The notes under the pieces are model-generated. The model was not told the DNA's origin and ran no database searches. It saw nothing but the letters and a program-made list of their open reading frames with translations. Below, piece by piece: positions 4,783-6,139 of a stretch of DNA of 64,000 nt. Source of the stretch: Pseudooceanicola batsensis HTCC2597 (GTDB taxonomy: Bacteria > Pseudomonadota > Alphaproteobacteria > Rhodobacterales > Rhodobacteraceae); assembly GCF_000152725.1 (NCBI RefSeq), contig NZ_CH724131.1, positions 1,705,739 to 1,769,738 on the forward strand. Direction: 5' to 3'. The position numbers were made by a program, and so were the translations under genes. Every line of letters starts with the position of its first letter. Position 1 is the first letter of the stretch.

Positions 4783-4964
4783 CATGCTGCCGACCTCGGG
4801 TATGTCGCGAACAGGCCGATCCGGGAAAGCCGGGCCGCGGCTATGGATTTCACCGTGAAATCAGGACCGTCCCGGCATGGCATGGCGCCCGAACCGCGCA
4901 TGTGCCGCACCGCGTCCGAGGTCGGCGTCGCGCCCTTTCTGCCTCTGGATTGACGAACGGACAC

Positions 4965-5033
4965 ATGGACGATAGCCATGTGGCCATGGAAAACATTACG
5001 ACCATCGCAATGACCTGGTGGCTGGCCTCCTGA
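4965..5033 (+). CDS. Trp-rich leader peptide (trpL-like) upstream of trpS
   Basis: A short frame with two possible in-frame starts, ATG 4965 (22 residues) or ATG 4986 (15 residues). It ends with ...TIAMTWWLAS and a TGA at 5031-5033. The two tandem tryptophan codons (5016-5021) lie five residues before the end, and the stop codon is inside the first hairpin of the attenuator. Tryptophan is rare in proteins, so two adjacent codons in a 15-22 residue frame immediately before a tryptophanyl-tRNA synthetase are strong evidence of a control peptide, as in E. coli trpL. Neither start has a good Shine-Dalgarno sequence. TTGACG at 4950 could be a -35 box, but no convincing -10 follows. Confidence 0.75.
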   Translation: MDDSHVAMENITTIAMTWWLAS

Positions 5034-5092
5034 CAGGGTGGCCGGATGACCAAAGGTATTCCGAGGCCGCCGCATGGGCGGCCTTTTGTTTT
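5016..5092 (+). promoter_or_regulatory. Ribosome-mediated transcription attenuator responding to Trp-tRNA
   Basis: Three mutually exclusive pairings can be drawn. 1:2 pairs CTGGCC (5022-5027) with GGCCGG (5040-5045), with CCT/AGG inside. 2:3 pairs GGTGGCC (5037-5043) with GGCCGCC (5065-5071), extended by GGA/TCC; this is the antiterminator. 3:4 is the terminator stem 5065-5071/5077-5083. A ribosome stalled at the Trp codons 5016-5021 would cover strand 1, free strand 2 to pair with strand 3, and allow readthrough into trpS. With ample Trp-tRNA the ribosome reaches the stop, 1:2 or ribosome coverage persists and the terminator forms. The logic is inferred from established trp attenuators; the pairings are read from the sequence. 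Confidence 0.75.
5065..5092 (+). terminator. Intrinsic terminator of the trpS attenuator
   Basis: A perfect seven-base-pair GC stem, GGCCGCC (5065-5071) with GGCGGCC (5077-5083), encloses a five-base loop and is followed at once by TTTTGTTTT (5084-5092). It stands 45 bases before the trpS start, inside the transcribed leader, where a terminator makes sense only as a conditional one. Confidence 0.8.
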
Positions 5093-5137
5093 CCAAGCTT
5101 CCCGATGCGCTGCCTCTCGTTTCATGAGAAGACGCAA

Positions 5138-6139
5138 ATGAATAGACCAACCATTCTGACAGGCGATCGCACCACGGGGCCGCTTCACATCGGGCACTAT
5201 GCGGGCTCGCTTGCGAACCGGCTGCGGTATCAGGACAGCCACGACCAATTCCTTCTGCTGGCGGATACCCAGGCTCTGACCGACAACGCGCATGATCCTG
5301 AGAAAGTGCGGCGCAGCGTGATCGAGGTCGCGCTCGACTACCTGGCCGTGGGCATTGATCCCGGTCGCACGACCATCTGCCTGCAATCGCATCTTCCGGC
5401 GCTGGCCGAACTCTCGATGCTCTACCTGAACTTTGTCACGGTCGCGCGGCTCGAGCGGAACCCGACTATCAAGGATGAAATCCGCGCGCGAGGGTTCGGG
5501 CGCGATATTCCCGCAGGATTCCTCTGCTATCCGGCGGCGCAGGCGGCGGACATCACGGCCTTCAGGGCGACTGTCGTTCCGGTCGGCGAGGATCAGGCCC
5601 CGTTGATCGAGCAGACGAACGAGATCGTGCGGCGCATCAATGCGATGACAGATCGCGCCGTGCTGCCCGAGGCGCGGGCGATCATCCCCAGGACGGGTCG
5701 GCTGCCCGGGATCGACGGCAAGGCCAAGATGTCGAAATCCGGTGGCAACGCCATTGCGCTGTCAGCGTCGCCGGAAACGATCCGGAACGCCGTCAGGGCG
5801 ATGTTCACCGATCCGAACCACCTGCGTGTCGAGGACCCGGGCCGCATCGAGGGCAACGTCGTCTTCACCTATCTCGACGCCTTCGATCCCCACCCGGGCG
5901 GGCTTGCCGAACTCAAGGCTCGGTATCAACGCGGCGGGCTTGGCGATAGCAAGATCAAGGCGCGCCTGGAGGCCATCCTTCAGGAGCTTCTCGCCCCGAT
6001 TCGCGCGCGTAGGGCACAGCTCTCCGAGGACCGCGGATACGTTCTTGACGTGATCAGAGATGGCACGGAACGGGCGCGAGAGCGCACCGAGGCGACACGG
6101 CGGGATGTCGTCAATGCCTTGGGACTGTTCCAGTTGTAG
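5138..6139 (+). CDS. trpS: Tryptophanyl-tRNA synthetase, probably an auxiliary copy
   Basis: 333 residues from ATG 5138, the normal size of bacterial class I TrpRS. HIGH is seen as HIGHYAGSL near residue 17 and KMSKS as KAKMSKSGGNAI near 195. The frame is open further upstream, but the earlier start would fall inside the leader hairpins. The N-terminus ILTGDRTTGPLHIGHYAGSL resembles Firmicutes-type TrpRS more than the SGIQPSG.lHLGNYLGA form usual in Rhodobacterales, so this is likely a second, horizontally acquired enzyme. The preceding attenuator would raise its expression when charged tRNA-Trp is scarce. Auxiliary, inhibitor-resistant TrpRS genes controlled by attenuation are known in Streptomyces; resistance here is only a hypothesis. 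Confidence 0.9.
   Translation: MNRPTILTGDRTTGPLHIGHYAGSLANRLRYQDSHDQFLLLADTQALTDNAHDPEKVRRSVIEVALDYLAVGIDPGRTTICLQSHLPALAELSMLYLNFVTVARLERNPTIKDEIRARGFGRDIPAGFLCYPAAQAADITAFRATVVPVGEDQAPLIEQTNEIVRRINAMTDRAVLPEARAIIPRTGRLPGIDGKAKMSKSGGNAIALSASPETIRNAVRAMFTDPNHLRVEDPGRIEGNVVFTYLDAFDPHPGGLAELKARYQRGGLGDSKIKARLEAILQELLAPIRARRAQLSEDRGYVLDVIRDGTERARERTEATRRDVVNALGLFQL

Follow-up and report, generated by a model that had tools for sequence, protein, structure and literature searches.

Upstream of a tryptophanyl-tRNA synthetase (TrpRS) gene in Pseudooceanicola batsensis HTCC2597 lies a short open reading frame with two adjacent Trp codons, followed by hairpins and a T-run, which raises the question of whether and how these elements control the synthetase gene. 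The gene lies in a stretch of 64 000 nucleotides (contig NZ_CH724131.1, positions 1 705 739–1 769 738; hereafter the window), for which a first-pass annotation had proposed ribosome-mediated Trp attenuation. This is still the best reading: judged by its anatomy, spacing and covariation, the leader is very probably a transcription attenuator that works through the ribosome, responds to the level of charged tRNA-Trp and governs an auxiliary TrpRS gene.

The auxiliary TrpRS gene and its leader

The window TrpRS matches TIGR00233 (trpS) with 221.8 bits, the cut-off being 176.75, and also matches Pfam PF00579. The nearest solved structures are those of Deinococcus TrpRS II (2a4m/1yi8; 381 bits versus 219 for the next). 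A second trpS of the same genome, at C2:1552265, is 29% identical to the window protein and has no upstream open reading frame (uORF) with tandem Trp codons (WW) within 450 nt upstream. The window gene is an auxiliary synthetase of the TrpRS II type, i.e. a second copy beside a housekeeping one to which it is ∼30% identical. For other auxiliary TrpRSs, a review reports inhibitor resistance or Trp nitration together with NO synthase (PMC9437257). At an E value of 1e-60 or better, an auxiliary TrpRS was found in 14 of 394 family-level genomes, P. batsensis included; its distribution is therefore patchy. Plasmids carry TrpRS-II relatives as well (104 records, including 24 from Staphylococcus and 22 from Klebsiella). 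One locus labelled Streptomyces griseorubiginosus (L179, NZ_CP107771.1) is an AT-rich plasmid in which TrpRS is followed by a transporter gene of the same kind as on a Staphylococcus epidermidis plasmid (L180), and is possibly an assembly contaminant.

The elements of the leader are summarized in Table 1. The tandem Trp codons, the stop codon, both strands of the 2:3 helix, the terminator, the T-run and the TrpRS ATG (5138) all lie where the first-pass annotation had placed them. The terminator stem that it gave as seven base pairs does contain seven GC pairs, but is longer, with two additional A-U/G-U pairs. The parts by which an attenuator is recognized are all present: a short uORF with regulatory codons for the amino acid to be sensed, an antiterminator and a terminator that share one strand and exclude each other, with the 1:2 hairpin lying over the end of the uORF, and an intrinsic terminator with a U-tract before the gene. 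The stretch 4960–5095 folds with a z score of −4.66, and none of 200 shuffled sequences folds as well. By eye, region 4 of the window is complementary to region 3 except for one mismatch and one G-U pair. The TrpRS frame is open upstream through the leader (5018–5137; a 387-codon open frame), and homology begins at the ATG.

Table 1. Features of the TrpRS leader and gene, in window coordinates
Feature	Positions	Strand	Remarks
Predicted sigma-70-type promoter	4950–4978	+	−35 TTGACG 4950–4955; 17-nt spacer; −10 TAGCCA 4973–4978
Leader with uORF, 1:2, 2:3 and terminator with U-tract	4986–5092	+	Ends 45 nt before the TrpRS gene
uORF MENITTIAMTWWLAS	4986–5033	+	15 codons; stop 5031–5033; read from the sequence
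Tandem Trp codons TGGTGG	5016–5021	+	Within the uORF
1:2 hairpin	5024–5043	+	5024–5031 with 5036–5043; overlaps the uORF end; fold and covariation
2:3 antiterminator	5037–5071	+	GGTGGCC 5037–5043 with GGCCGCC 5065–5071
Intrinsic terminator	5063–5092	+	3:3b hairpin 5063–5085, 9 bp; 5-nt loop 5072–5076; T-run 5084–5092; letters GAGGCCGCC-GCATG-GGCGGCCTT, then TTTTGTTTT
Region 4 AUGCGCUG	5105–5112	+	Degenerate copy of the region-3-complementary element, just upstream of the ribosome-binding site
Putative Shine–Dalgarno (SD) sequence GAGAAG of the TrpRS gene	5126–5131	+	Predicted hairpin with upstream CTCTC
Auxiliary tryptophanyl-tRNA synthetase, TrpRS-II-like	5138–6139	+	333 aa; TIGR00233 and structure matches

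A leader family in the Proteobacteria

Genome searches, together with a scan of named genomes from which the 80 best loci were taken, yielded 151 loci, which are numbered with the prefix L. With the housekeeping locus set aside, a WW uORF lies within 450 nt upstream in 88 of 150 loci and is lacking in 62. One of these leaders, at a contig edge (L080), is an artefact and was dropped, and removal of six repeats from the remaining 87 left 81 unique leaders, 35 with a detected terminator and 46 without. The family extends over Alpha-, Beta- and other Proteobacteria.

The first-pass annotation had named conserved WW codons and compensatory stem changes in related genomes as the check on its proposal; both are found, and the spacing is conserved too. 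WW lies 116–137 nt from the TrpRS start in 71 of the 81 unique leaders; 9–12 codons precede WW in all 87 leaders, and 2–4 codons separate WW from the stop codon in 86 of them. Any WW uORF of up to 50 aa precedes 15 of 625 other genes of the fetched loci, and under a single rule for both groups the leader-like geometry is seen at 84 of 141 TrpRS loci versus none of these 625 background genes. The uORF peptide is variable across the family apart from its start and WW; close relatives do share its last residues, the codons of which are also part of the 1:2 stem there. Loci L078 (Nitrospira MAG ACE_NIT12) and L079 (Parvibaculum MAG ACE_PRO2) have identical leader regions in bins with like names, and the Nitrospira assignment of the former may be a binning error.

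Promoter and start of the uORF

In the window, the predicted +1 is position 4986, the A of the uORF AUG. Among the 81 unique upstream sequences, 67 have TTG at −36 or −35 relative to the uORF ATG; applied to other positions, this two-position test gives at most 13 of 81 (mean 2.6). A/T is enriched at −13 to −11 and C occupies −1 in 81% of the leader upstream sequences. SD words before the uORF are not enriched and are rarer than in shuffled sequences (8 of 81 versus a shuffled rate of 0.16). By these sequence signals, a promoter spaced for transcription start at the uORF AUG is conserved, and the leader transcript is predicted to be leaderless because this spacing puts +1 on the A of the AUG.

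The frame of the window uORF is open further upstream than 4986, and a peptide of 15–22 residues had been noted. The 15-residue form, from ATG 4986, is the likeliest; the start at 4965 is disfavoured by the conserved promoter and by stop codons in relatives. Seven of the 12 closest leaders (five of ten without duplicates) have a stop codon 2–3 codons before the equivalent of ATG 4986, so that a longer uORF is ruled out in these seven. On both counts ATG 4986 rather than 4965 is most likely to be the start.

Leader and TrpRS copy number

WW is conserved within the 87 leaders by construction, and the unbiased measure is a count per genome. A first set of 67 genomes was taken from the 85 that gave a match; truncated genes, matches for which no locus had been fetched and 11 more remote members of family f188 were set aside. 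A second set, drawn from 50 of the 80 named loci, comprised 49 genomes. The WW leader is present in 34 of 36 genomes with two TrpRSs and one of 31 with one (L053) in the first set (Fisher p = 1.5e-15, with genomes counted as independent and shared descent uncorrected), and in 37 of 38 with at least two and none of 11 with one in the second. When the sets are combined, the leader is present in 71 of the 74 genomes that have at least two TrpRSs and in one of the 42 that have only one. Of the exceptions with two or more, L020 has a single-Trp uORF ending RFYWPSP, and no WW uORF was found at L052 and L127. In Cupriavidus (second set), the two-TrpRS genome of C. basilensis (L110) has the leader and seven one-TrpRS genomes are without it. 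The leader tracks the auxiliary TrpRS copy.

In the Cupriavidus loci that lack the leader (L093, L097, L098, L100–L102 and L120) the sole TrpRS is of the auxiliary type; at L093 and L101 the gene comes after the end of a frame that we take to be of the ksgA type. The auxiliary-type TrpRS is likewise the only one found, and lacks a WW leader, in 23 small-genome Alphaproteobacteria (L022–L044; 0.6–2.1 Mb). The link of the leader to a second copy, and its absence from sole TrpRS genes, can serve as a natural experiment on the circumstances in which a synthetase has to be inducible.

Covariation, folding and the proposed mechanism

Covariation was analysed in a hand-picked set of 27 of the 35 terminator-type leaders (L013, L021, L057–L059, L087, L104 and L108 were left out). 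For the 1:2 hairpin and terminator together, 92.1% of cells are paired, with slid partners reaching at most 60.3%; both sides have changed in six of 16 pairs, which none of 500 shuffles matches. Taken singly, the 1:2 hairpin has 85.9% of cells paired with compensatory change in three of seven pairs, and the terminator 96.7% with compensatory change in three of nine. When own and swapped partners are compared, the 1:2 hairpin gives a z score of −10.5 over 81 leaders. The 2:3 helix is paired in 94.7% of cells (slid controls at most 69.3%), and we regard it as conserved rather than covarying because it has a single compensatory pair, which 70 of 500 shuffles reach.

Folding at full equilibrium was dropped as a test of switching, since it discriminates little: the terminator dominates all states in most leaders, including that of the window, and is lower by more than 0.1 in the stalled than in the stop state in eight of 40 leaders, the window leader not being among them. 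To represent co-transcriptional folding, the leaders were instead folded only as far as region 3 reaches, with the ribosome stalled at WW or positioned at the stop codon. The probability of the 2:3 helix then exceeds 0.5 in all 35 terminator-type leaders when stalled and in nine of 35 at the stop codon (window leader, 0.76 and 0.01); a control with shuffled spacers has a median of 0.41 and exceeds 0.5 in five of 35. Because the terminator wins at equilibrium even with a stalled ribosome, the switch would depend on the order of synthesis.

In the attenuation mechanism that we propose, transcription would start at the AUG of the 15-codon uORF. When charged tRNA-Trp is plentiful, the ribosome would reach the stop codon and cover region 2 (or be released, allowing 1:2 to form), so that region 3 would pair with the downstream arm and form the terminator. 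When charged tRNA-Trp is scarce, either from a shortage of Trp or because the housekeeping TrpRS is blocked, the ribosome would stall at the tandem Trp codons and mask region 1; region 2 would then capture the nascent region 3, no terminator would form and the backup synthetase would be transcribed. We infer the stalling, termination, induction and physiological trigger from the anatomy, spacing and covariation of the leader, its promoter placement and its link to auxiliary copies, all of which come from sequence and comparison. Because the leader would read charged tRNA-Trp itself, the backup TrpRS would be switched on whatever the cause of the shortage, and by this logic a spare synthetase could be kept off for as long as the main one functions.

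Leaders without a U-tract

The scan for U-tract terminators was positive in the 35 leaders mentioned above, mostly of the clade of the window, and detected none in the other 46. In leaders of the latter kind, region 4, which forms a long helix with region 3, is the segment just upstream of the TrpRS SD, adjoining the SD helix, and the local 3:3b hairpin is placed as the terminator is in the window clade. This suggests an alternative to attenuation, namely that control is mainly translational, with the 3:4 helix beside the ribosome-binding site and the SD hairpin deciding and the terminator a late addition or of minor effect. A hand-picked set of 30 of the 46 (beta- and gamma-type leaders as well as L067, L112 and L118, all expected to align poorly, were left out) has helices 1:2, 3:4 and SD paired in 94.6% of cells with 36 compensatory cells, and on each of five measures none of 500 shuffles equals this. 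The 3:4 helix is also detectable in terminator-type leaders, with own-versus-swapped z scores of −6.6 for the 35 of these and −13.8 for 80 leaders; the swapped-pair test gives a z of about −14 for the 3:3b hairpin (80 leaders). The SD is mostly paired in both types (median unpaired probability 0.22 for 28 leaders of the terminator type and 0.17 for 44 others); the SD of the window, GAGAAG, falls below the four-letter SD score and is excluded from these counts. Translational control would also suit the position of the terminator-type leaders of the window's group, which form one clade nested among the others.

Against these points, region 4 of the window has a mismatch, whereas its U-tract terminator is intact and conserved, and the folding results show no clear effect on SD accessibility. 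The median SD accessibility is nearly equal in the stalled and stop states (0.24 and 0.21; 0.21 and 0.18). Holding region 4 raises the mean accessibility from 0.18 to 0.30 versus 0.28 for shifted controls in 42 leaders, and from 0.20 to 0.38 versus 0.35 in 25, i.e. hardly beyond the controls; increases of more than 0.2 are commoner, with 18 versus nine controls of 42 and 11 versus eight of 25. On these figures the 3:4 helix might either open or close the ribosome-binding site. We therefore consider it unlikely that translational control is the main output at the window locus, and retain transcription attenuation.

The minimum-energy fold of L109, a Rhizobium-type leader without a terminator, had suggested that region 2 acts as an SD mimic which captures the anti-SD. 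This candidate was rejected, as 2:4 complementarity is no better than in swapped pairs (p = 0.31 for 81 leaders; p = 0.04 for the 46 without a terminator). Related leaders with and without a U-tract provide one sensor with which a move between translational and transcriptional output could be tested.

Relation to known systems

T-box RNAs sense uncharged tRNA and control aminoacyl-tRNA synthetase genes. They differ from the window leader, which is uORF-based, in that tRNA binds the RNA directly with no uORF. They are described as the Firmicutes way of regulation (PMC1262725). No T-box match at gathering score was found in the window, nor one at E values up to 1 within 4900–5150.

Among Streptomyces, a Trp attenuator has been predicted for S. 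avermitilis trpS2 (PMC1262725), and S. lividans trpL2-trpS has been described from RNA-seq (PMC8079986). These share with the window a Trp-codon leader peptide before a TrpRS gene, and trpL2 is likewise transcribed leaderless. In trpL2, however, there is a single Trp codon and a U-rich tract is lacking, whereas the Trp codons of the window leader are two and adjacent and a U-tract follows its terminator hairpin. Streptomyces also belongs to a different phylum from the organism studied here. According to Vecchione and Sello (2010), the attenuated TrpRS gene of S. coelicolor is reportedly the auxiliary, inhibitor-resistant one. Because trpS attenuation is known in Streptomyces, we file the leader within the known class of Trp attenuators; what appears to be new is a widespread leader on auxiliary TrpRS genes of Proteobacteria. 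In Caulobacter crescentus, a small CDS mapped before trpS has been called a likely leader peptide (PMC4117421); what it shares with the window leader is its position before an alphaproteobacterial trpS. Apart from this CDS, a literature search that covered few subscription journals found no description of the leader in Rhodobacterales or across Proteobacteria. To the first-pass annotation, sequence comparison adds the assignment of the gene as an auxiliary copy, the spread of the leader over Proteobacteria and the predicted alternative helix to the ribosome-binding region in relatives without a U-tract.

Sinorhizobium meliloti trpL/rnTrpL, of trpE(G), is similar to the window leader in having a leaderless uORF, consecutive Trp codons and a terminator, and in belonging to an alphaproteobacterium, but it controls Trp biosynthesis and encodes a 14-aa peptide, whereas the window leader precedes a synthetase gene (PMC7298713). 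The likeness invites the thought that the released short RNA and/or the leader peptide acts in trans, as do rnTrpL and peTrpL in Sinorhizobium. The predicted start at a leaderless AUG, as described for rnTrpL (PMC7298713), and a predicted terminated RNA of about 107 nt would suit such a role, but the variability of the peptide, noted above, does not, and we hold action in trans to be improbable.

Specificity and evolution

A covariance model was built from 24 of the 35 terminator-type leaders, including that of the window. In the P. batsensis genome it has one strong match, 5004–5092 (92 bits; E = 2.8e-23, the sequence being part of the model), followed by one of 23 bits. That the hairpin is simply the terminator of the upstream SDR gene, with a uORF there by chance, is scarcely credible: GC-rich terminators are common, and the weak model matches examined in this genome (L153–L158) lack a TrpRS and look like GC-rich hairpins, but the leader geometry is absent from the background genes, the leader precedes TrpRS genes in many genomes as well as on a plasmid, and WW, 1:2 and 2:3 are conserved across divergent loci, with compensatory changes, as would not be so for a chance arrangement.

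A quick protein tree (135 sequences) places 31 of the 34 terminator-type leaders, together with L014, which has no terminator, on one branch (support 99) that is nested within a larger group of leaders lacking a U-tract. The three remaining terminator calls (L057–L059) lie elsewhere and have poor T-runs; L021 was counted as lacking a terminator here, as its hairpin has no U-tract behind it. The single branch suggests one gain of the terminator in the group of the window. We infer the polarity of this gain, rather than observe it, because the TrpRS gene is also transferred from one lineage to another; both gene and leader are present on a Roseibium plasmid.

A tentative scenario, quite possible if somewhat short of probable, is that Proteobacterial auxiliary TrpRS genes inherited one leaderless Trp-codon leader, the ancestral output of which was control of the ribosome-binding site through 3:4, that a U-tract added behind 3:3b in the ancestor of the window clade turned this hairpin into a terminator under the same sensor, and that the leader was lost once the auxiliary synthetase became the sole TrpRS. 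If true, a ribosome-sensing switch would here have changed its expression platform in a way that can be traced.

The Rfam search of the window gave no match at gathering score in the leader. RF00513 (Trp_leader) matches over its full length (1–100 of 100) with 29 bits and an E value of 3.2e-4 (251 bases searched), below its gathering score of 41; the leader would work like Trp_leader but is not filed in the Rfam family. In 244 genomes of the order, our own covariance model has 31 matches at E values up to 1e-4. Three of the 14 weaker ones were examined and none of these three precedes a TrpRS gene. All 17 matches with E < 1e-10 precede TrpRS, three of them a truncated or broken copy. Within the bacterial order of the window, WW leaders stand before truncated or broken TrpRS-II genes at L162, L172 and L173.
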